From the NCBI GenBank assembly GCA_015039365.1, contig WION01000122.1, positions 79,002 through 143,001 on the forward strand: a stretch of 64,000 nt of DNA, read 5' to 3'. A program made the position numbers and the translations under genes. The stretch comes from Amanita rubescens. Lineage: Eukaryota; Basidiomycota; Agaricomycetes; Agaricales; Amanitaceae. The notes beneath the pieces are model-generated. The model worked only from the letters and a program-made list of their open reading frames with translations. It did no database searches and had not been told where the DNA came from. Position 1 is the stretch's first letter, and every line of letters begins with the position of its first letter. Below are positions 42,382-57,724 of the stretch, one piece after another.

Positions 42382-42820
42382 ACTGCTGAGGACGATGGCG
42401 TATGAATGCAGAAGCATTGTGCGCGGCAAACTTATTTCCGAGGCCGAGTGAAACGAAGGACTCGGTTTTATTCCGAAACTTGAGCCGCTTTTATTTCCTT
42501 TTTGGTAAGCGCCGGTAATTACCGAATAAACAAATACACGCACATACTAACAAACAGCCTCGGACCTGCCGTGCACAGCAGCGGCCCATAATTCCAAGTT
42601 CAGTTTTAACCTCCGCCCGGCTCGCCTCGGATCCAAGGTCACTATGCCAGTGTTGGATGATACCAGCTCCTTTCACGTTCAATAATCTGCATTGCAACAG
42701 TAATCGGTATAATCACAACAGGAGGGAGAAAAGCGCTTTCTATGCATATAATACAACCACTGACACGACTCGGTATGACGGTCCGTATCGGACAATATCT
42801 AATTACATTTAATTATCATT
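42382..42820. other. Left flank of the large element
   Basis: Holds the 5' flank of the F-box pseudogene. Its right end (TTTAATTATCATT) abuts the first 10-bp repeat of the element. No gene. Confidence 0.4.
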
Positions 42821-42930
42821 GTGATCTACCGTGATCCGCCGTGATCCGCCGCGATCGAGCGTGAATCGGCGTGATCCGTCGTGATCTATCATGCCCCGCC
42901 GTGCTTCATCGTGCATACCCATCGTGCATG
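42821..42930 (+). repeat. Left terminal array of 10-bp GTGATC repeats
   Basis: At least ten consecutive units on a strict 10-bp period: GTGATCTACC, GTGATCCGCC twice, GCGATCGAGC, GTGAATCGGC, GTGATCCGTC, GTGATCTATC, then decaying to ATGCCCCGCC and GTGCTTCATC. Likely binding sites for the element's transposition protein. Confidence 0.75.
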
Positions 42931-43222
42931 CCTGTCGTGACCTTTCGATCATCGTAGCCCTTCAGGTCACTCCGATCCCGGTACATGTTGAGGAAAATCT
43001 TGACACTGAGGGTCACCCAGTGAGCTGGCGGTCGGCAGTAGCACCTTGCATATCGACCAATACCTATTCACTGTGCTCGTTGTTCATCGTTACCGGAAAA
43101 ATAATATGGCAATGCCCACCTGACATCCCCCAGCCGTGTGACTATAGCGGCAAAAGTAAAACAGAGTAGCGCCGTGACAAACAGAAAAAATTCCCTTCCC
43201 CTCTCTTCCTCGTTTCTTCGTC
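42931..43222. promoter_or_regulatory. 5' region of the HECT-like gene
   Basis: Sequence between the left array and the start codon. No frame of note; presumably contains the promoter. Confidence 0.35.
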
Positions 43223-46200
43223 ATGCCCATAACCACCTCTGTCGCTGAGCTGTTTCCTCTCATCCCTCGTGATCGTTGCACACAATGCACGACAGTGTGC
43301 GCGGGTGCCACCTTTGGACAAGTAAGTGATTTCTATGCTTCCCAGTCTATGAGCACACCTTATCTTGCTTAGTTCTTTGTTCAACGTCATGAACCAATAA
43401 ACGCTACGGAGCTTTGCGGTTGCGGCCACCCTTACTGGCAGCATTATATCACCCAACCGGCGATTCGATTGGCTCCTAATGCATCGAGTGTGTCAGCCGT
43501 AGCTCGTGGTAACTGTCAAGCGACTGGATGTGGAGGCTTCATTCCTTTGGTAACGATCAATACAACACAAGTTTTCATCTGAATAATCAACACTTACAGT
43601 CATCAATGTCCACAACGATGACCTTGCAAACTCTTTGCGCTTGTGGCGCACCTTATCTTCAGCATACTCGGGACATACCAGAGTCAGTCCATAATTCTCT
43701 TTCTTTCACGACAGCAGACTCACCTTTTGTTTATCTCTAAGTGTGGCTCCTCCACCCCGAATATCAAATACCCACGCCGCGCCTGGCCATCTCACTCCAG
43801 CCCAAATTGAGACGCCTCTACCTGCGCTACCCACAGGTGTCACGACTGGAATCCCAACACCACTCGCCGCGGTACGCACAGTTGGGACGTACAGCCCTGC
43901 ATTTGTCACCCCTGTTGCATCATCACTTTCTGCATCTCAGCAGCGTCAAGTTTCTGCCACTAGGACCCGCCGCGCCGGCACGAGTGGTTTTGGATACAAT
44001 CCAAGCCAGGGTCCAACACCCGGCCCACCCACCACCATCCCTTCAAGAAAGGGCAAAAGGACAATGGCGATGCCCTTGCCGTCGAAACTTAAATGTGCAA
44101 TAATACCTTTCGCGGTATTCAATCAATTGTTAATTCTTTAGATCAGATGTACTTACGAATTTAACCGTTTAGAACCGCACCAACTCTGAGACTCCCTGTC
44201 CTCCGAATATGTTCCGCCTTACTGACATCCAACGTGATCAGTTGCTTCCGCAGCTTGCGAAGTGGAACCTTGTCATCCCACTTACGGAACCAGAACAGTC
44301 AGAAACTATATGGGAAGTACTTGATGAAACTATTACTCACCATCTCCAGGCGCATAATATTACTATCGAACAACCTCCTGCTTTGCAGGACCATCCCTAC
44401 TTCAACCTTTCATGGTCCGTCTGCCAAGCCGCGCGTACCAACAAAACGGGAATCAGCAATTATACCCCGTCGACGCCTCCCCAGTATGCTTTTACGTTTA
44501 ATTATTTGCAGGGGCTAGCATGGCCCGATCCAATCGAGGAAGGCTACGGTGTGTTTTTTGTCGGTCAGTTATTCCATTTTACTACCGTCATCCAAGGCTG
44601 AATCAACCTACCCCCATCAGCTCCCCGTAAAAACCACCTCCGAGGGCCACTACCAGAATCAAGTGATCTCAGCCACCATCCCTGTTGGCCATGGCGGGTT
44701 GTATCTCCTTTCCATGACTGGCTCAGGTTTGGAGGCGAGAACGATCTCTACCAAGCAAATTCCTGCATAGTTGAGTGTCAAATTAATGACGGAGGGGCTA
44801 GCGGCGATGACGATGAAGTAAGTTTGACCGTGTGTCGGCACCTCCATTTTCTCCTGACTGTTTGTTAGTTTCAACCATCTCCTGTTACCCGCAAGCGCTA
44901 CTTACCTCCGATTGTTCATCCTCGGCCCGTTCGCCGCGTTCGTTTGGATAGCGGGCCTGGTCAATCTCAACCTCCCCTCCCATCATTTCTTTCTGAATCT
45001 CGTGTCCCCTCGTCATCTCAGGCTGTCGTAACCGAACCACTCTTTACACCCGACAGTCCACCTGCTGAATGCTCACGCCACGATAGCCGTTCTCCCACCC
45101 CTCCACCTATTTTATTGCGGCCCGCACTCGATGATCGCCTACCCGATTCGGTCATCCGTCAGTGGCAAGACTCCCTTCAGATAAAACGGGAAGTAACAAG
45201 GGCACCGACACCGCACATAAAGGGGCCAAAAGCCACTGATCTTGCGACATTTCTTATTAGCGCAGTCTACGCACTTGCCAAACAAGAACCCGTACCAGAA
45301 AAAGACAATGAATTAGGCGTGACTTCTAACCATATCAAAACCCTTTATTCCTTATTTAAACCGTTCCCAACTTTCATCGTGTAAGAGCCTTCTCGCGTCT
45401 ATCCGCTTTCATGCTCTAAATCCTCTTAAGAACTGAGATCTCCGTAACTGACCTTGGAATTGACACTTCCGGAAACGGCCTTCTCCGTACTGTATTTCAA
45501 TCAGCGCTACAGCAATCTACAAAATCCCACAGGTGGATCCCCAGTGTGAACAAGGGATACCATAAGCTTCACTTATCTCGGAACCCGGACCTTGATATAG
45601 TTAATCAAACTATAGACTACAAGGTTGAAGGGCACATTGCTGCGCTTTTCACTACACACCTCGCTATTGGTCCCGATCCCATCTCTCCCTTTGTCATTCT
45701 CGCCGCCACCTTAACTAAGTTGGAAGAATTTGAATTTGATGTGGAGTTTGCGAGGGCTATGATCCCAGATGAAGACCTTTTGAACAAGGTAGAACACATT
45801 ATTAACTTACCTGTTGGCAAGATCGACGCGACCGACATGTCAAAAGATTGGTTACATTCCCTGGCCTCGGATATTGAACTCCCTGTAAGTGCAACCATTG
45901 ACCGCTAAACCAGAACACGCCTGATGTCTTTCAGGCAAACCATTTGACGCAATCACGCCCGGTTGAGGCACACCAGAAAATGCAGAAGCAAATGCTTGCG
46001 TACTACCTCATCGGTGATCGTGACCCTTGGAAGCATACAAATTTCCAAGCGTTCAAAGAGGGTTTCAATTCCATCGCATCCGGTCCCTTTCTAAAGGTAA
46101 GTTCATAGTCCAAACCAAGTTGATCTATCTCACGTTGACTAGTTTCCACTTGCGCGATGGGACGAGCCTCGGTACCTCCAACGTTTCCTCGCCACTCTAT

Positions 46201-46751
46201 ATAATCGTCGCATTGAAATCCCCGGAGACGTCATTCCGCTAATTCGTTGGCATGCTACAGATGTGGACGATCCCGCAACTTACAACCTTTGCTGCCTGTT
46301 CATCATGCGGTTTACGCGTTGGATCGAAGGAATCGGGCACCCTCGTGAGACGAAAGATAACCTTGTAACTTCGCAGCAATACGCGCAAGCACGACTCGAC
46401 CGTGGTCTACGAGCAAGGCTCTTTCATCAGGTGGTTACGGGGTGCTCATTGAAACTAAATTTGCAGGATGAGTTTATCAATGTATGGGAAAGAATGTTCT
46501 TCACGTCAACCATATTCACAACATAATAGATCCGCTTGGCTTACCGGCCACTTGTCCGTGATGAAGACACCATCAAGTTTTCCGTTTGCACAAATACGAT
46601 CTATCTCAACATCAACAAAGAAATAGCCCGTCTTCTGGTCCAACCCGGCCTATTATACCGTCACGATGCTAAAGGAAAGGAAGTCTGTACGGAGTTTGAC
46701 ATGTGGTGGCACGCGCAAATGATTCTTGGAGATGATTTTAACAGAGCTTGA
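43223..46751 (+). CDS. Cysteine-rich protein with HECT E3-ligase-like C-terminus
   Basis: Eleven exons (43223-43321, 43373-43549, 43600-43682, 43742-44114, 44173-44548, 44621-44817, 44869-45380, 45431-45884, 45934-46095, 46143-46481, 46530-46751) all join in phase with GT-AG introns, giving 997 aa. The N-terminus has two Cys/His modules (CTQCTTVC...LCGCGHPYWQH; LCACGAPYLQH) that look zinc-binding. Residues about 115-230 are Pro/Ser/Thr-rich. From about 610 the pattern follows HECT ubiquitin ligases: GNGLLRTVFQSAL and GPDPISPFVILAA in an N-lobe, then LFHQVVTGCSL and FSVCTNTIYL, where Cys944 sits where the catalytic cysteine should be. HECT assignment is by motif pattern only. An intact frame in a mobile element suggests use in transposition or host interaction. 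Confidence 0.72.
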
Positions 46752-46903
46752 GCACGCGATAAAAACACACACGTACGTATATAGATTAGTTAATGGTTGA
46801 GCATGCGGTCGTTGCGCAATACAGGCTGCCTCCTCCCATGTTTACAGATCGTCAGTGTCCGAGAGAAGTGATGTCAATCCCAAGGGCGACAGCTATGCAG
46901 CCT

Positions 46904-47245
46904 TGACACTTGCACATGAGCAGGCGACTCGAGGTCTAACCTACGTGAGCGACAACTGTCTAACTCAAAAAATCCGCACTAGTACGCCCCTCCCTTGACA
47001 CTTGCACATGGAGCAGGCGACTCGAGGTCTAACCTACGTGAGCGACAACTGTCTGACTCAAAAAATACAAAGCCGACGCCCGCATGTCGGTAGAACGCAC
47101 TCTTTCGCACTGTCAATGGGGCAGTAGGGTCGTTTGAAAGATGGTGAGGGTAGCCTTTAAACGCGATTGTAGCAGTGAAACGGCAAATGAGCAGGCGACT
47201 CGAGGTCTAACCTACATGAGCGACAAGTGTCCAACTCAGAAAGTT
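46904..47245. repeat. Tandem repeat, about 92-bp unit
   Basis: Copies begin at about 46904 and 46996 (CTTGACACTTGCACATG, then GAGCAGGCGACTCGAGGTC, CTAACCTACGTGAGCGAC and AACTCAAAAAAT), and a third, partial copy lies at 47189-47245. Confidence 0.8.
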
Positions 47246-47324
47246 CCACGCCGTTTCTTTGGTATCTGTGTCAAACAAACAGAGAAAGCGAGAAGTAAAG
47301 AGGTAGGAATACGTGAGACTTGGG

Positions 47325-47430
47325 CCAAATTAGGATTGTTTCCCAATTGGGAAGTTAAACTTCGTCGTGAAACAACAGCCCAATTGGGGTTGTTTCCAAG
47401 TTGGGAAGTTGAACCTCGTCATGAAACATG
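47325..47430. repeat. Two-copy direct repeat with CCCAATTGGG palindromes
   Basis: The unit AAT(T)GGG(A)AGTT(A/G)AAC(T/C)TCGTC with ...GAAAC is repeated twice, about 49 bp apart. Each carries or abuts CCCAATTGGG. Confidence 0.65.
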
Positions 47431-47479
47431 AGCTAGACATTCCGTCGCTCACATTCCGTCGCTCCTTACCCGCCATCAC

Positions 47480-48250
47480 GCTCTTTATATATGGTGAGCC
47501 ATACGCCTGTTCTTGCCATCACACCGTCCGACACTAAGACTGTTTAGGCTTTCTCGTTAACGGGAGCTCGCGTCGTAACCCGGAACGCAAGGAGATAGAC
47601 CAGTGTCTCTCCAGATGGTTAGACCTCGTGTCGCCTTTTCACGCCGTCACGCCGTTCAACACTACGACTGTTACTAGGCTTTCGTTAACGCGAGCTCGCG
47701 TCGTCACCCGGAACGCAAGGAGATAGACCATTGTCTCTCCAGAGGGTTAGAGCTCGTGTCCCCTTTCATCCAGTCACTGACGCTCTTTCTATATCGTGAG
47801 CCACACACCTCTTCTTGCCATCACGCCGTCGCCGTTTAACACTATAAATGTTAGGCTTTTCTCGTTACGCGAGCTCGGAGCGCAAGGAGATAGACCTTTG
47901 TCTCTCCAGAAGGTTAGACCTCGTGTCGCCCTTTCATCCACGAGCTGCCCTTCATCAAAATCACCACCTCACCAATGGTGAGCCAATATGCCTCTTGATA
48001 TCACTGTTCAACACTGATGCTATGAATGTTAGGCTATTCTCGTTACCCTTGCTCGCGTCGTCACGTTACAGGACAAGCGAAGCATCTGGGGGTCTACGGT
48101 GGCGACCCTGACACCATGACTCACCAGCTCTGTTGAGCAACCCTTGTGATGTCGTCCAACTCGCAAAGGAGACCTGGAATGCAAGGAGATAGACAATTGT
48201 CTCTCCAATGGGTTAGACCTCGTGTCGCCCCTTTTGTCCAGATCCTCTGA
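47480..48250. repeat. Tandem repeats of about 120-200 bp, four diverged copies
   Basis: Each copy contains ATGGTGAGCCA, TTAGGCT(T)T(T)CTCGTTA, GAGCTCGCGTCGT, CGCAAGGAGATAGACC and GTCTCTCCAG(A)...GGTTAGACCTCGTGTCGCC. A diverged piece recurs in the other gap at 52790-52910. Confidence 0.75.
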
Positions 48251-48500
48251 CATTCACGCCAACGTTATTCTACTTGGAACTGTCGCTTGTCGCAAACATC
48301 GCTCCTGAGGTAGCAGCGTCAAGTAAGCAGCGACTTTACGTTCTTTTTCTCAATTGCTGACGACATCGTCCTCTTCCAGCATCAACTGGGGCCCATTTTA
48401 CATGAACGCGCCATCCGCTTGACTTCATGATCGAAATTCTTAATGTATACATTGGCGTCAAGAAGTAAGCAGCGACTTTACATTCTGACGAAGTACACAA

Positions 48501-49990
48501 TCAATCGTCCTCTTCCAGCGTCAGCTGGGACCCCATGTTACATAAACGCGCCATCTCCTTAACTTCATATTCGAAATTCTTTATTTTTCCGTACCAAGAA
48601 GCTGTCAGGCGGACAGCTTCGTCGAGTGGCGTTAACAACAATTCCTTCGCTCGGTTTATATATCGGATATCCCGAGGGGATGTAACCATTCTTTCCCTTT
48701 CCATATATTCCAACAGAGCCGCTGCATTAAGCTTCAATCCACGGTAGTTTTTGAATGTATTGGGACTCCTGTATGGCGTTGTCCCATCTTTGAACGCCTC
48801 AACAATGTCCGCGATACAAATTTGTTCATTGCCGGCTTGGAATTTCGTAAAAATGGCCACGCGGCGTCCGCACGGGATCCCCAATGCCGTGCACACCTCT
48901 GTTACAATTCGGACAAACATGAACAGGGCAAATGCGCTTTCGTTCTCTCCGTTTTTCCTCAGGACTAGCTTCTGGAAGTTATCGTAGTACTGCTGGACGA
49001 GAGACCCGACAATTGTGGATGTAGTTGACACCGTCGCGATGGCCTGGGGTGTAGAAGAATTTATCGGCCTTGAAGGTATGTTAGGTTTCTAATAGACATT
49101 AGAAGACGCATCCTCATCATCGGTTCCTAGACTCACCCCTTCCCAAACATAGAGAATGTACAAGTCAAGAGTGGGATCCTGGTTGTAAAGATCCATTATT
49201 GAGGACTTGCCCTCGCTGTCGCGTACTGGCTTAATCAAGAAATTCATTTCCAAGTCTTTGAGGAAACCCAGGGCTCGAAAACCTGTCCACGAACGACCAA
49301 AATTGTCGAGGTCATCCATGAATACAGGGACGCCAGCGGTGCCAAGCTGAATTTCTGATTCGTCCATGCCGTCGATGTCCAAGTTCACAGCCCGGAACTC
49401 CAGTTGTTGAGAGCTGCGGAGGGCATCATACAGATCAACCACATTTGCAGGATTCCCCGGGATTCCAGTATCACGGGTCATAACAGTGAACATGGTATGG
49501 CTATTCATCCCCCTGGGGCATTGAGTGCTGACCATCAAGACCGACAGCTTGTTATCATTTGCGTCCTCGAATACGGGATGCCCAGAAGATGACGGAGGTT
49601 CCCCGTTTGTTTCTTTATGGGAGGTAAAGACAGTACTTCCCCCATTTGCAGAAACCGCGGGCATCGCTCGTACTTCTTTTTCTTTACCTTTACGCGAGGT
49701 ATAGACGATACCCTGCGCATTGGCAGCAGCAATTAGGTCCTGGAAATGCACGTCGGTCTGCTCCGGCACGGTAATCGGCGAGCTAAGCGACGAGCGTGCA
49801 TACATCTCAAACTCAGGTCCCAAATCTGACGTTAACGTTATGGATTGAGGTCATGAGTAAACAAAAGTGTGAAGGTCCTACTTGCAAAGGTCCTGAACGC
49901 ATCCACAGATGCAACATCTACGGGCAACCGATCAGCGTTGGTGTTGAGGACTGCAAGATCACGCACCTCCGTCGACACCGTCTTGTTCAT
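48501..49990 (-). CDS. Element protein of unknown family (461 aa)
   Basis: Exons (minus) 49990-49882, 49825-49137 and 49088-48501 join in phase. The 48-nt second intron (GTGAGT...TTAG) removes an in-frame TAG that would otherwise split the frame. I do not recognise the family. Visible: a short N-terminal exon (MNKTVSTEVRDLAVLN), a low-complexity stretch rich in Ser/Gly/Lys (residues about 60-120), a central alpha/beta-looking part (LSVLMVSTQCPRGMNSHTMF; FRALGFLKDLEMNFLIKPV), and a C-terminal half that looks helical (GSLVQQYYDNFQKLVL; YMERERMVTSPRDIRYINRA). Transcribed divergently from the integrase, with about 650 bp between. No catalytic motif could be assigned. Confidence 0.72.
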
Positions 49991-50637
49991 TGGTGCTAGT
50001 GAGGTCAATTACGTCTAACAACAGAGATGGTAAGTTTCTCTGCCCACAAAAAGAATCAACGTATCTCAACCTGCTTCTGGTTCTCCAGCAATAGCGTCCG
50101 CAGCTGAATCTAGAACAACACTAAGAAGCAGTGGCATATGTGTTTCAGTCACCTACTGGCTTCGTCTGGCGCCATCGTTGACGTCGCTGACTGGACGTTC
50201 CCCGTGTTGCCTAACCGTAGGATTATGCTGCGGACAAGAGCGGGTAGATCTGTTACCTACCAGTGTCGAGGGTGGAATCTACGGAGGAAGGAGGATGAGC
50301 GTTCATCGCCTGACGCTCAATGAGTTACCTACCAGTGTCGAGGGTTGAATCTGCGGAGGATGGAGGGCGAGTGTTTGTCGCCTGACGCTCTCCTCGTCTT
50401 TGCATGATCGGCACCATGGCTTCGTCTCTATTGAGCGGGGGTCTACGACAGCGTCCCGCCTGCGTTACGGTGGTCATAGAACGGTGGTAGAAGAAGGGGA
50501 GTTGGCGGGTGGTTGGGTGAGAGGAAGTGGTGGAAACAATTGGAAGGACCGGCTGAAAAATTTCGCCTCCAAGGTTTTGCATCCGCAGCACATGTCACAA
50601 GCGGCATTTCCCATTCCTATTCCCGATTGCAACGCCC
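49991..50637. promoter_or_regulatory. Divergent promoter region between element genes
   Basis: Shared upstream region of the 461-aa gene and the integrase. It contains a 72-bp tandem duplication (50252-50390). Short open frames here have no support. Confidence 0.5.
50252..50390. repeat. 72-bp direct tandem duplication
   Basis: Two copies starting at 50252 and 50324 (GTTACCTACCAGTGTCGAGGG ... CGCCTGACGCTC), about 85% identical by eye, in the divergent promoter. Confidence 0.8.
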
Positions 50638-52417
50638 ATGGACCAGATAGAAAACCTGCGGCAGGCGTACTTACGCTTGGCTGAAAGGGTACGAGTTTCT
50701 CTACAGATACACGTCGGCGACGCGATGCGATATCGACAGCTACGCAACGAGGTGCTGGAGTTCTTCAATGTCGCCGGACAGGTCTGTAGCCAAAACAACC
50801 GTTACATGTCAGGGCTCTGACACGTTCTAGTACCAGAATCAGGTGCCAGTACAGGATTTCATATCGTTACAAGAGTCTGTGAACACTATGATAGAGTGCC
50901 TTCGCACTGCAGAGAACGAGGCAATGGACCCCCCTGCCCCTGGTTTGCAAGTTACATGTAGAGTGAAAGGCAGGGTAGGACGGCCACGCGTCGAAATCGA
51001 CAGGAATTTCTTGGAGAATGCATTGAAAGTTCGGGGTCCATATCAATTGGGGCAGGTGATGAAGTGTAGCCCGCGGACAATCAGAAGGCGAGCGGTCGAA
51101 TATGGTCTCAGGAATGAAGCTCCACCTGTGTTTCAGACCGTTCAGAACCCTGATGGAACAGTGTCTCGTGCATGGGCCTCGTCGTCCACCCCTGAATACT
51201 CAGCTATTGCTGACGACCCTAATGCGCTGGATGAGTTGGTCAGGGATGTGTTGCAAACCTTTCCGAACTCTGGGAGACAAAAGTTGGACGGGTTGCTAAA
51301 AGCAAGAGGCTGCCGTATTCCCAGGGAGCGGCTAAGGGAGTCGTACGTTCGTGTACATGGCGCACCTGCACACTTCGCAAGACGACAGATAGAGAGACGA
51401 ACTTATTATGTGCCAGCTCCTAATAGTCTTTGGCATCACGACGGGAACCACAGTAAGTAAAAGACAAGCGCATGCTTCATTTCAATTACTTAGATGATCA
51501 CAGAGTTGATTCGATGGGGAATCGTATGCCACGCTTTCGTGGATGGGAAGACGCGCCTTATTACAGCTGCACAGTTCAACGACAATAATCGGGCAGATAC
51601 CGTGTTAGAAGTATTTGAACGAGCTGTGAGATTACATGGTTTGCCGAGTCGGGTTCGGGGTGACCACGGTACTGAGAACGTAAGGGTGGCAGACCGCATG
51701 TTGGAACTAAGAGGGAACGGGAGAGGCTCGTATCTTTGGGGCCGGTAAGTGACATTGACGTGTATGTGCCTAATCTGACGATAAATATCTCCCAGCTCCG
51801 TCCATAATACAAGATCCGAACGACTATGGGTGGATCTAGTGAACGATCTTTCTCAAAAATGGAAAAAGTTCTTTCAGGACCTGGAAACTCACCACGGCAT
51901 GAACGCTGAAGACGGTGACCATACGTGGCTTCTTCTTCATCTTTTCTTGGAAGAATTGAACAGCGAACTTCAGGAATGGGTCAAGGGTTGGAATCATCAC
52001 AAGATGCAATTGAGAGGGGAGAGGAACCAGTCGCCGATTGAGATGTTCTTGGTGGGTATGGTGGAGCGTGAAACGCCGGGCGTCCGCGAATGGATTGAAC
52101 AACAAGAAGAGGTTGTAGACGATTTGCCGAACTACGGGGTGGCATGGGAGGATCTCGAAGATGAAGTTGCCCGTGATTTGGCACAAGGCGGTCAAGATCA
52201 GGGGCCTTTTCAAATTGATAATCGCCCCGGCGAGCTTCACGAGGTAACCTGCGAGCCTCCAGGTTGCTCTCTTTCCGCGGAAGAGAAAGAATGGCTTGAC
52301 GCAACCATTGCGCATGAGTTTGGCACAAACCACTTTCGAAGCATGCCGGAACGCATGCTCATCTGGAATAGAGGGTTGGAGCTATGTCGTACCTTAGTCC
52401 AGCAACGTCAAGGATAG
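50638..52417 (+). CDS. DD35E integrase/transposase with N-terminal helix-turn-helix-like region
   Basis: Retroviral-type integrase core acting as a DNA transposase, cutting and joining the element's ends. Exons 50638-50781, 50843-51452, 51504-51744 and 51796-52417 join in phase to 538 aa. The catalytic triad is complete: Asp248 ([10 protein letters not shown]), Asp305 ([11 protein letters not shown]) and Glu340 (HNTRSERLW), a 34-residue spacing between the last two (DD35E). Upstream, [20 protein letters not shown] and [17 protein letters not shown] look like a DNA-binding helix-turn-helix preceded by a helical start ([17 protein letters not shown]). The C-terminal 110 residues are acidic and unassigned. 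No reverse transcriptase, protease or gag is nearby, so this is not an LTR retrotransposon. Confidence 0.88.
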
Positions 52418-53016
52418 ATGAAGGTACCAGCCATCAATATTTTGTTTCGCCAAACGTGCTGCTCACATTTCCATTAGATAAAGCTAGTACATACTATGGA
52501 TTATGTCTGAGAGAACGTAATTGCGACTGACACAAACAGTTGAACAAAATCATTATATAGTAGATTCCCTAGAACTTTCATTCTCACAAAGATAGGCGGT
52601 AGATATGTTGTAAAAGAACGTCTCAGCAACGGAATCACATGTCATTGCATGCTTTGCATATATTTGGTTCAGCTGGAGCATTACGCGAAGTTCATTATTT
52701 CAAATTGGGCTTCAGGGCTCGTCTCTCTCGCTCTCGCTCTCCCAACTCTAGATCCTGCTGCTGTTATTGGAACCTCTCAGTATTGAGCTAGACAATTGTC
52801 ACTCCCGTGGGTTAGACCTCGAGTTGCCCGCCCAAATTTGCTTAAACCGACTTTCGGGGCTAGACATTTGGTTACTCCGGAGTGTTAGACCTCGTGTCAC
52901 CCTCGCATTCACGAAGCAAACGGACATTAAATTCAGGGAGGACTGTCTGACCCGTGATAAAAAGGTATCATGATCCTCGTTCATTTTACATGCATCTGAG
53001 TATTGAATTTGTAGGT
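52418..53016. other. Gap between element genes, with relic repeat
   Basis: 52790-52910 contains two diverged copies of the GCTAGACA(A)TT...GTTAGACCTCG(T/A)GT module also found at 47.5-48.25 kb. The rest holds no gene. Confidence 0.55.
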
Positions 53017-55093
53017 ATGGATCGAACAAGCGCGTCAAACATCGAGCAGGACCTTCTTCGTAATCGCAATACCAACAGTATGCCTTTCGAATCGACGTTC
53101 ATGTATTCTCTGCTAAATGTTTTTTAGAACCATTAGGGGCATTCGACGGTCGTGTTGCTGTTCTTCACCCTGAGCGACCTGGATGGTTCATCTTGTCACC
53201 TAACTGCGATTACATAGCGTTGCCTCCTGGTACCCGATGCAACGTTTACGTACGCTTCGATGGCCGCTTTGGACCAGACGACCATACGCAATGGCCGCAG
53301 CCATTTTCACGTAGGTTTCCGCATTTGTGCTGCATACCCAAAAAGAAGCAGGGCAATCCACATTCTGTCATCTGGGAAAATCCTCAGATACATGACTTTG
53401 AACGAATTCAGAATGATATTATTGGGTTAGGCAAATGGTCCGGATCATTGCTTGAGGCATTACGCAAGAGCAATAATTGGCTATTGGAGGAGTTGGCTCG
53501 CCGCCGTGCGAATAACAAAACGCTGGATTCACATCCAGAGGTTGTAGCATTATCAACAAATCTGGAGCGTGCCTTATCTAGGTTGCGTGCGGTTCCGGTG
53601 GGCTACCGAGGGGCAGTGATCTGTCTACGACTGGCGCAGCGATTATGGTTGGAGTTATATGCTCTGATGGAGTACGTGGATAAATATCTTCCATCCATGG
53701 AAGGCCGGGCTCCTCCTGAAACCCAGATTGCGGACGTCGTTGGTTGTTTTGTTCATACGGCTAATAGTGCTCAACGACTCTTCTCGGCGGGGATACCATA
53801 CTGGGTCGTACGCGAAGTACGTACATTTGATAAGGAAAACATCCTCTCTATCGGTACAATTGTCAAGCCTCAAGATATGTTGGTGGTCGAAGATCATCCC
53901 ACATATGCTCCTCGCATCTACCAGGGCGATTCCAACGACAATCGGTATATGACTATCTGTAATTACTCGCTCAAGTTCATGGGTTACGCGGACCCGTTCT
54001 GTGGAGTACTACCAAGAGGCATATCCCCTCATAATTTCTCTCAGATGATTTCCCAGGCTGGTCGATCGCGAGAGGGCTCTACTCGCAACCACACTACTTC
54101 CTTTCAACCATGTATGTTGGATTTTTAATCATGATGTACGTAAACTGACTTCTACAATCAGATAAGAAACCGTCGGGTGGGAATACTGGTGGGCGAGACA
54201 AATTCGACCTCGTAAATAGCCTCTACATGCCTCCTTGCCTAGATTCATGGAGAGCCGCATTGCGCGCGGTAGACCAAAGGCGTCAATGTCTTTACTCTCT
54301 TGAAAAGTTAAGCTCCAATGACGGGAAATATGCATTCCCCGAACCGGGCATTTTCTGTTCCGGTGATAATGCTCGTCGACGCAACAAGTTTCTGACCGTT
54401 TGGGAAATTTTGCAACCTGTCGTTGTCAATCGCATGAGCTCCGACCTGGGTAGCGTATCCCTGTTATCCAACGAACAGTGGCGCATCCTCCTCGCAGGAC
54501 GTGAACCCAATGACAAAACGAAGAGAGGGTCTGTGCGCGCCTCCATAACCGATCTCTTGTCTCAAGATGCTTTGGATTTGGGAGTGGGATTGTCCAAGAT
54601 TCACGAGGTGGAAGTCGGCGAATATTCGATACGTGACGCGCAGGGGGTGTTATGGGAACTTGCAGAAATGTCTTTCAGATTTGATTTGGTCATGTTGGAC
54701 AAGAAGGCACTAGCCGCTCGGGGACTGGAGAATACTGCCTACAATATGCAGTTGCTATCTCCTCTGTCTCGCCAACGGTTAATCATGGCTTGCTTTCCAT
54801 TTGGCCCGGCCGATCCTCGTCATCTCGCATTCGTCGACCGTCAACATGCCCGGCGCGGTTTGGCGTCACCAACAATTCGAGATCGAATACCGTATCTCAA
54901 TGCGTTGCGGGCGGTCATGAAAGAATGGGATGGTTATGAGGTTCATCCGATTGGCCGCTTGGAGGTGCTGACAGAAGATGCTCCAGTGGTTGAAGGGATG
55001 GTCTACGAGGAAGCCGTAGCACATTTCTACACCCAGTCCTTCTTCCGTTTTTTTGGCCGCGCAGCAATCGTACCCATGTATCTTGAAGACTGA
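53017..55093 (+). CDS. Element protein of unknown family (658 aa)
   Basis: Exons 53017-53077, 53128-54111 and 54162-55093 join in phase (GT-AG) to 658 aa. I do not recognise it. The N-terminal 90 residues look beta-rich (GWFILSPNCDYIALPPGT; VYVRFDGRFGPDD), followed by a CC-containing segment (FPHLCCIPKKKQ). The middle is helical (WSGSLLEALRKSNNWLLEEL; LRLAQRLWLELYALMEYVD). The C-terminal part includes LLSPLSRQRLIMACFPFGP and ends SFFRFFGRAAIVPMYLED. Same strand as the integrase and 600 bp downstream. An open frame of this length inside the element argues that it is needed for mobility or maintenance. Confidence 0.75.
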
Positions 55094-57293
55094 TTTTTTG
55101 GCTGTTTCCGTTACAAACTTGTTTCTTTACTCTTCAAAATGTCTATATCAGCTTAAATAAATGCGGGGATATGTGTTCCGTCCCCGAGTCTACATGATCA
55201 ACAATTTAGTGACCCCGATTCCCTGCTTGTCGACGACACAATCTAATCCATATTTCATTCAGAATTGCCTCTTGGGAATAAATGTTTCTTATCGCTGATA
55301 CATTAGGGGATTATGTGATCCGCTTGATGGTAGGAACGGATCACTTAGGTGGCGATGACGAACGGGATATATCAGCGAAAAAAAGGGTGGTAAAGATAGC
55401 GTATGAAGATCCGCTGGCAAGATAAACGGGGTCGTCGAATATCCAAAAGCGCAGACACAAAAAATTCGCCATGGATACAAAAATGAATGTTCCTTTTAGG
55501 TGCAAGAAATGTGCTCCCCGGCCCTCATCTCCCCGGCCGTCTCTGCTGGACTATAATTAGGGGTTCCTTGTTCTCACACCTCCCAGTTGCCGAATCCACT
55601 ACTTCATGTTTCATGGATCAAACGCTGTTAACGGGCGTCGGTGGAAGCACGTGTGGAAGAAACAACGACCGCTGCCAATTTGTTGAACACATTTCCTATC
55701 CAGAATACTACATTCCTCGCTTTACCTTCTCAACATTTAGTGGCAAAGACATAGTCGCTGGTGAACGCAGCTTTTAGCAAAACCAACCCCATCATGTTCC
55801 CCGTTCGTTTGAGATTATCTCGAATCCAGTTCGCTACTAGGGTGAAAGGGCGTTCGAATTGAATTGTTACAAACGCACCTGGCATGGCAGCAACCCACGT
55901 CCCCCTCCCTATCCAGCTCTGAGATCGCACATAGCAAGAGGTCAAAGAAGTCGTTGATGAACGCACTGGGCGTAAGGGTTTACCACAAGAAAATGTTTGG
56001 GGGGCCGCCCTTCCTTCTCGGGGACAAGCAAGGGATTAATTTCCAGTTCCAGAGGTATCTTGAACTAATTCGACGAAAGCGTTAACGTTTATCTTATCCT
56101 TTGCACGAATTGTTACACAGCGGCGTAGTTATCTCTCTCTATCTGGAAAGACCGCGCTACAGGTATGTCCCCCATACTTATACTTTTTCCTCTGCATTTC
56201 TAACGGAAGATGGACGCAGATTCTACTTGTTGTATGAAATTGACCACGCTGCATTGCTGCCCCTGGCCCTTCTCCGGTCTGATGTGGCTGACCGGGAATC
56301 GGGATCTTCAACGTCCACTTGCCCTGACTGGGCACAAGAGCGCCGGATCATCGCTGACGAGGTACGAGCCGACTACTATATGCGCATAATGTCAACCCAA
56401 TCTACATCTGCAAAGGTAGATTCAGACCATCGCTGATGAGGTACGTGCTACTATATGCGCATAATGTGTCAGCTCACATCCTAATCCTCCGCCTCTAGCA
56501 ACTGTTCGCACTGCGCATGTCCAGAGTTCAGTGTTAGCAGCAACACACTGAACTGAGCTAAGTTATGCTCATGTAAGTTGCATATATTCAGTTTTTCGTA
56601 CTAGTTCCGCTTCTCACATCCTTGTCTTCGCACCTTGTGAACCCAGCATGACGCTGGGCGCGTCCAACACCTTTCTGGTTCTCACACCCGCGTCTCCACA
56701 CCTCATGGACCCCACAAGATGGTGAACACATCCAATGCCAGTCCGCTCCTAACACACACTCGTCTCCACACCCCATGGACCCCACACGACGTTGAGGGTC
56801 CAACGCCATTCAGCTTCTCTCGCCCTCGTCTCTGCACCTCCACGCGACGGTACAATGCTGAGCTTCTTTCTAGCATCGTTTTATCGTTGTACATGTTTAG
56901 TTTTTAATATAACTCTGTTTCTGAGTCAATTGCCGGTGGTACTAGTACTAGTACAAAGGGTCCTCTGATTTACCTGGGCAACTTCGGCCTGCTATCACTG
57001 AGTCACTTCGACATCACCCCCAGCGGCCTTCATCAGCGGCTCTTTAGCATCATTACCAGCGCTAGACGTTGTACCTGCTGCGGTCGCGGGCCGCGGATTT
57101 TGGGCCGGGTGTTGTTACGTTGCCTGATGCACAGTCTACAGATTAAGTTATGCTAGAGTCGGAAGCTGGCCTGCAAGGCATGCGCATGTACAACTATTTC
57201 TCGGTATGCATAGCGCCGGAGTGGACCAGCGTGCACGAGTTGGGCATGGTGGAAATGACCTGCGGGGTTTTCTTTCTGGTTAATCATGCGAAA
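55094..57293. other. Right part of the element, no convincing gene
   Basis: The best coding candidate is an open stretch at about 56200-56436 (FLTEDGRRFYLLYEIDHAAL; WAQERRIIADEVRADYYMRI). Its last 45 bp are repeated imperfectly at 56428-56470, so it may be a broken exon. Frames at 55487-55777 and minus 55730-55966 are unsupported. 56608-56860 is tandemly repeated. 56940-57290 has nothing recognisable. Confidence 0.45.
56608..56860. repeat. Tandem repeat, about 68-bp unit, 3.5 copies
   Basis: Units run GCTTCTCACA..CTCGTCTCCACACC..CATGGACCCCAC, then TCCAACGCC, with moderate divergence. Confined to the right part of the element. Confidence 0.7.
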
Positions 57294-57383
57294 AAATGTT
57301 CACTTCAGTTCACGCAGGATCACTCTCGATCACGCCGATTCACGCCGGATCCCGGTGGGTCACGCTAGATCATGCTGGGTCAC
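57294..57383 (-). repeat. Right terminal array of 10-bp GTGATC repeats, inverted
   Basis: Read on the minus strand from 57383: GTGACCCAGC, ATGATCTAGC, GTGACCCACC, GGGATCCGGC, GTGAATCGGC, GTGATCGAGA, GTGATCCTGC, GTGAACTGAA, GTGAACATTT. Same period and orientation toward the interior as the left array. Unit 5 is identical to unit 5 on the left. Confidence 0.75.
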
Positions 57384-57724
57384 TATGTACCGCAATGAAA
57401 ATATATGTTTAACTGAATTTTGCCTGATATGGTCAGTCATACCTTTGAGTCCACAAAGGGTTTACACTCGATCGCCCCAGCTGGAGGAATCCTCTCTAAA
57501 GCCCAGGAAGCAACCGCGGAGCAATACTGTGTGAATATACCAAGAGAATGGATATAACATAATAATAGGGCAAATGAGTGAGAAGCAGGGTATCAATAAA
57601 TTGTTCTGTTACTTGTGTAGATGGTTGTATCGTGAGAGAGAGCGCCGTTTTAACTTCTTTACACTTGAGATCGTCACATAATAATGTAGCTTTTTTTACG
57701 CTCGTGCCGGTGAACCTCAGGCAT
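57384..57724. other. Right flank of the element
   Basis: No gene or repeat recognised. Contains the 3' flank of the minus-strand gene ending at 57725. Confidence 0.4.

Follow-up and report, generated by a model that had tools for sequence, protein, structure and literature searches.

Do the four multi-exon genes that lie between inverted arrays of short repeats on one contig of the blusher mushroom Amanita rubescens belong to a single mobile element, and if so, to which kind? The stretch analysed here, hereafter the window, comprises 64,000 nucleotides (C27:79002-143001) of a genome of 75.7 Mb in 786 contigs. A preliminary description of this DNA placed one mobile unit at 42821 to 57383, with a DD35E integrase, a HECT-like gene and two further genes, and considered it perhaps an undescribed class of transposon. 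It is now nearly certain that the locus holds one mobile unit, because copies with common ends, 6-bp target duplications and a joined empty site are found in the genome. The element extends from 42774 to 57441 (14,668 bp in the window copy) and carries gene A (43223..46751, + strand), gene B (48501..49990, - strand), gene C, which encodes an integrase-type transposase (50638..52417, + strand), and gene D (53017..55093, + strand).

The ends are set by the copies. Searching the genome with 1 kb of the element gives 13 matches, and the alignments of the copies on contigs C771, C201 and C103 to the window span 42774-57441 with none beyond on either side. The copy on C223 has the same left start as that of the window, and its homology continues beyond 57441 because its right flank is also the right flank of the window. 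These stops agree within one chance base, and a sixth copy (C66), which is split by an insertion of ~7.8 kb within gene C, has the same end bases. Homology between copies thus runs 47 and 58 bp past the ends first proposed; 42821 and 57383 are the outer edges of 10-bp arrays, and the tips of the element lie outside these arrays. Five uninterrupted copies (window, C771, C223, C201, C103) have all four genes in identical order and at equal spacing within common ends; they differ from each other by 0-10 substitutions (0 between C771 and C201). Such near-identity of the copies indicates that the element has been active recently. The other four uninterrupted copies measure 14,744-14,747 bp and keep a 79-bp stretch that is missing from the window copy at 47277..47278. 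Partial or broken relatives are present on C504, C157, C348 and C784, and C66 also holds an 87% copy, whose right end was searched for and not found.

Flanks were compared for nine left and nine right ends of element copies. Six copies have both ends on one contig (C27, C771, C223, C201, C103, C66), and two of these show matching hexamers on both sides, namely CCTTTG on C223 and CTGATG on C66. A third duplication, CCGTTA, is spread over contigs: it precedes the left end of the C771, C201 and C103 copies, and a right end followed by the same hexamer lies on C462. When the CCGTTA left flank and the C462 right flank are joined with one CCGTTA, the result is found at C311:233027-233520 with 494 of 494 positions identical, and is thus an exact empty site. 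The preliminary description had proposed to look for empty sites and a target duplication; the three 6-bp duplications and the exact empty site support a single mobile unit. We rejected the TA dinucleotide as the target duplication and prefer TA tips with a 6-bp duplication, because the hexamers outside the tips match at three sites. A sequence on C672 was also rejected as an empty site; there the right flank begins at its base 26, and the sequence that precedes this base is a different one.

Two observations at the flanks weigh against this account: matching hexamers are restricted to the two both-end copies named above, and the window copy itself is without a target duplication, since its left hexamer ACTCGG (42768..42773) differs from its right hexamer CCTTTG (57442..57447), the one duplicated around the C223 copy. 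The left flank of the window equals that of C348 (99.7% over 1494 bp) and the right flank that of C223 (100% over 1351 bp), and the left flank of C223 differs from that of the window. The two flanks hence come from two loci and cannot be read as one insertion site, so we rejected the window copy as a clean insertion. It is probably an assembly chimera. Similarly, a single left flank is common to C771, C201 and C103 (100% identity over 1475 bp between C771 and C201), and their right flanks are three different ones, which makes assembly joins through the long, near-identical repeat the likely source of the mixed flanks in these three copies and in the window; true recombination between copies is a less likely source. 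One flank of a long repeat shared and the other different, a sign of chimeric joins, is seen on C771, C201, C103, C27, C223, C49 and C277. At the left site of the window the element is absent on C311 and C705, which read ...ACTCGG|ACTACG, and a search of the genome with the ACTCGG pattern for the right partner of this site gave no match. Among the nine left and nine right ends, no partner was found for the left flanks of C27/C348, of C157 and of the 87% copy on C66, or for the right flanks of C771, C201, C103, C784 and C201:109137. The left flank of the window also contains a dispersed repeat of ~164 bp (42436-42599), which has many copies of 75-99% identity and is missing from the C311 and C705 sequences.

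The tips of the element, TATGACGGTCCGTATCGGACAA on the left and TATGACTGACCATATCAGGCAA on the right read inward, form imperfect inverted repeats that agree at 17/22 and 19/26 positions. The left terminal inverted repeat is TATGACGGTCCGTATCGGACAATATC (42774..42799, + strand) and the right one, read inward, is TATGACTGACCATATCAGGCAAAATT (57416..57441, - strand). TA..TA termini (TATGAC...GTCATA) are present at both ends of the window, C771, C223, C201, C103 and C66 copies. Inside the tips lie the subterminal arrays of 10-bp repeats of the GTGATC type, at 42821..42903 on the left (+ strand; period-10 array to 42886 or 42903) and, inverted, at 57310..57383 on the right (- strand). The inverted arms 42817-42886 and 57318-57387 (70 nt) are 76% complementary. 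Inward GTGATC occurs five times in the left and twice in the right 300 bp, and outward GTGATC in neither; in the same direction the 300-bp flanks have none, and the intervening 14,068 bp have nine on both strands together. Inverted arrays at both ends, as first described, are thereby confirmed. The last 16 bases of the element are found exactly at nine places in the genome and with one mismatch at six more; the further places possibly represent non-autonomous relatives. At one of them, C201:109137-109152, the likeness to the element is limited to about the last 40 bases.

To which kind of transposon does the element belong? Its transposase, gene C, has a match to the Pfam family rva_4 (E 3.9e-62) and a weaker match to rve below the cut-off of that model, as well as matches to NCBIfam IS481 (E 9.4e-13) and IS3 (E 1.8e-4). 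The identification as an integrase-type enzyme therefore stands, and the label DD35E does not: the acidic residues are D252, D309 and E344, and with 34 residues between D309 and E344 the protein is DD34E. KDZ elements are large basidiomycete transposons with accessory genes, and in its size, host and possession of extra genes the element resembles them; an integrase-core transposase would also be compatible with Ginger1, Ginger2 or Polinton/Maverick. We nevertheless regard membership in any of these groups as very unlikely. Gene C contains neither an HHCC motif nor CxxC, the terminal repeats of the element are short, and none of the proteins A to D matches a polymerase, a capsid protein or a KDZ transposase up to E = 1. 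Furthermore, the duplication is 6 bp here, while Ginger elements make 4 bp and KDZ elements 8 bp.

The features instead point to the clade formed by IS3EU and GingerRoot. Members of this clade have no HHCC motif; in complete IS3EU families the termini are always TA..TA and the duplications usually 6 bp long (PMC10045372). Since TA..TA tips, a 6-bp duplication and an integrase-core DDE enzyme akin to IS3/IS481 are the published hallmarks, the element is probably a large, gene-rich cut-and-paste DNA transposon of the IS3EU/GingerRoot kind, and neither a KDZ element nor a new class. What sets it apart from the published members is its size (14.7 kb in this comparison) and its recurring pair of genes, A (HECT-like) and B. 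Some points weigh against the assignment. The IS481 and IS3 matches of gene C fall below the curated cut-offs, a PDB search with gene C gave no integrase and a single unrelated chain at E 1.1, and the placement is based on tips, duplication and enzyme similarity rather than on a phylogeny against Repbase IS3EU.

The large size, the four genes and a gene set that we did not find described in the literature searched would fit an undescribed class, as suggested at first. This is unlikely, however, given the agreement of tips, duplication and transposase with published IS3EU/GingerRoot elements (PMC10045372) and the fungal IS3EU elements with extra genes that are already known (PMC12730594; PMC10853768). 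Styx of Zymoseptoria is such an IS3EU-like DNA transposon with a 6-bp duplication, four open reading frames and recent activity; it differs in its length of 7.9 kb, its inverted repeats of 36 bp and the GATA, CCHC and DUF3577 frames beside its transposase (PMC10853768). The term HECT does not occur in the main text of that paper. Rust fungi and Tuber have TET-positive IS3EU elements, which share the extra genes and, in the rust set, the 6-bp duplication, and differ in carrying alpha-kinase and TET/JBP genes and, in rusts, in having the tips TAYGG..CCRTA and inverted repeats >30 bp; passenger genes move between kinds of transposons (PMC12730594). The element in A. rubescens has tips beginning TATGA with only 19/26 identical positions, and its proteins A to D give no alpha-kinase or TET/JBP Pfam match up to E = 1. 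Neither HECT nor ubiquitin nor Amanita occurs in the main text of PMC12730594. IS3EU also appears in fungal repeat counts (PMC8955403 and PMC11645255), and the accessible text of a paper on Amanita transposons contains neither "Ginger" nor "rubescens" (PMC4122921). No IS3EU element with a HECT-like gene was found in the literature searched; a description in subscription papers or Repbase Reports is possible.

If the element is of a known kind, its interest lies in the recurring extra genes. Co-occurrence was counted from six-frame searches of the genome with the four proteins, in which hits were condensed by hand and exon hits of one gene merged, leaving 41 of 95 rows for A, 25 of 34 for B, 40 of 94 for C (38 loci) and 40 of 67 for D; as 67 of 148 candidates were scored for D, its loci are a lower bound. 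Of the 38 integrase loci, 28 have A, 23 have B and at least 10 have D no farther than 20 kb away; the numbers expected per locus from random placement are 0.02, 0.01 and 0.02, respectively. One of the A neighbours (C132, 19 kb away) is probably outside the same element, and near-identical contigs may duplicate one locus. Grouped by divergence, the loci with A form about eight groups, and seven of these groups also have B. Conversely, 13 of 41 A loci and 2 of 25 B loci are without a detected integrase within 20 kb, and so are 30 of the at least 40 D loci. At 10 of the 38 integrase loci no A was detected; the A proteins at some of them may be too diverged for detection. D accompanies integrases of at least 80% identity to gene C at all 10 loci (lower bound) where it was found, and C146, with an integrase at 75%, has A and B and no detected D. 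The recurrence of A, B and C beside each other and the mostly solitary D argue for A-B-C as a core trio that recurs across divergent families, with D as an optional passenger. The preliminary description had named single occurrence of the four genes at unrelated loci as a refutation of one unit; in this genome A, B and C mostly stay together, so that it does not apply to them, and it does apply to D.

The solitary D loci are also what one would expect if independent mobile genes had come together at the locus by chance, or if it were a set of nested insertions. We consider this hardly credible, because gene order, spacing and ends are the same in five uninterrupted copies and the whole interval is absent from the empty site. 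The position of A weighs against our reading, as it differs between the window family and the divergent families. In the latter (C identity 38-48%), both neighbours are oriented opposite to C, with A on the 3' side of C at +1.2 to +2.4 kb and B, at the loci where it was detected, on the 5' side at -2.0 to -3.5 kb. In the window family, A precedes B when read along C, so A has moved and turned. B is conserved, as seen from the match between the window protein and that of the divergent C49 family (BLASTP 7e-19).

Is gene A a HECT-type ligase? The protein has 1002 residues, with paired Cys/His motifs at residues 19, 48 and 105 in its N-terminal region. An alignment of the C-terminus covered eleven members of the family in A. 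rubescens and A. muscaria, and a C-terminal Cys is conserved in all ten that are not truncated there. A profile of nine A proteins (P0030 and P0036 dropped) was then aligned with host HECT genes by hhalign, which kept four of the six HECT sequences. The best local match falls on the HECT C-lobe, placing the conserved Cys of A on the catalytic Cys of HECT together with an RARL..TG motif, and scores 27.1; the highest of 100 column shuffles reaches 24.0 and the reversed profile 15.7. A HECT protein is thus the somewhat favoured reading of gene A. Several results speak against it. Single A proteins have no HECT match in Pfam, the sole PDB match to a profile built from six A proteins is ribosomal protein S6 (E 1 and above), and a HECT model run over the genome gives 34 matches up to E = 10, none of them at an A locus when places are compared. 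The probability assigned by hhalign itself to the alignment is 3.8%, and an earlier comparison, made with seven A sequences, aligned a different motif and reached 20.8, where its controls (10 shuffles, one reversal and gene D) gave up to 19.7. Taken with the Cys/His motifs, these negative searches could mean that A is a zinc-binding accessory protein that binds DNA or helps transposition and resembles HECT by accident. This is a serious but lesser possibility, as an accidental resemblance would have to account for a conserved Cys and motif that align on the C-lobe above all 100 shuffles. The claim of a HECT-like gene is plausible but weak, with a profile alignment in its favour and negative Pfam, PDB profile and genome-wide model searches against it.

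If A is a working HECT-type ligase, the element would carry a ubiquitin ligase of its own, and the target of this enzyme could show by what means transposons are silenced in mushrooms. Deubiquitinases are carried by Helitrons (PMC9741609), so that ubiquitin enzymes on transposons have a precedent. In the mechanism that we propose, the N-terminal region of the transposase, for which the C49 relative has weak helix-turn-helix matches, would bind the subterminal 10-bp arrays, perhaps together with B. By analogy to other integrase-type transposases, gene C would cut at the TA tips and join them to target DNA with a 6-bp stagger. B may assist transposition, since it is kept beside C. A, with its C-terminus like a HECT catalytic lobe, would most likely ubiquitinate either the transposase or a host factor that acts in silencing or repair. 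D is probably a passenger that joined later from a gene family dispersed on its own, and a host-directed passenger function would be expected of it. Close to evenly balanced in our judgement, and therefore tentative, is the wider proposal that a basidiomycete branch of IS3EU has kept a three-gene core of transposase, B and its own HECT-type ligase through deep divergence, with the ligase acting on host silencing or on the transposase. If so, ubiquitin control would be a built-in part of a DNA transposon. The element shows that an IS3-like transposon of a mushroom can reach a very large size and hold, besides its transposase, a set of genes that recurs, and it explains some of the "hypothetical proteins" annotated in Amanita. 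Moreover, near-identical copies and an empty site make its transposition directly testable.

The gene models come from manual splicing at GT-AG introns, which measure 46-59 bp in A, C and D; the two introns of B are 56 and 39 bp long, and the second (39 bp) is the least certain part of that model. Gene A has 11 exons (43223-43321, 43373-43549, 43600-43682, 43742-44114, 44173-44563, 44621-44817, 44869-45380, 45431-45884, 45935-46096, 46143-46481, 46530-46751) and differs from the NCBI protein P0026 in 1 residue of 1002. Gene B consists of three exons (49990-49882, 49825-49108, 49068-48501; 464 residues) and has no assigned function. Gene C has four exons (50638-50781, 50831-51452, 51504-51744, 51796-52417; 542 residues), and gene D has three (53017-53077, 53128-54111, 54162-55093; 658 residues) and is identical to the NCBI protein P0001. 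No model contains an internal stop, so the four intact genes of the preliminary description are present in the window copy; other copies do carry stops, in the last exon of C on C223 and, on C66, in the middle exon of D. Pfam gives no match for A, B or D up to E = 1, and a profile of D finds nothing in PDB. Members of the dispersed D family include the loci L049 (C111) and L050 (C34), with a Copia-like frame downstream on C111; at two D-only loci inspected by eye, no transposase was recognised. The internal repeats reported earlier are also present. Families of 45-65 nt in both orientations (repeats D1, D2, D4 and I2-I13) lie between A and B at 46917..48232, and two further copies (repeats D2, I2 and I15) lie between C and D at 52783..52909; a 45-nt family is at 47592-48230 and 52785-52902, with inverted relatives at 46917-47253.

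The divergent C49 family is represented by copies on C49 and C277, which have 19.1 kb in common at 99.9% identity. This shared stretch is counted from the left end TATGTTTCTCCAAAATGGACAAA, which is followed by GTGATC repeats in an array similar to the left one of the window. Its left tip agrees with that of the window at 14/22 positions. A candidate right end, picked by searching, lies 17.7 kb from the left end and has TTTG instead of TATG. The left flank of C277 ends in GAAGAAG, and the sequence after the candidate end begins with GAAGAAG, which supports it. Against it stand the deviating tip, the mostly outward GTGATC repeats (5 versus 2) and the homology between C49 and C277, which reaches as far as contig C277 does, ~1.4 kb beyond the candidate. 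Between gene A of C49 and this candidate end, a frame with weak ankyrin-repeat matches (C49:36855-37682, L033) is perhaps host-type cargo.

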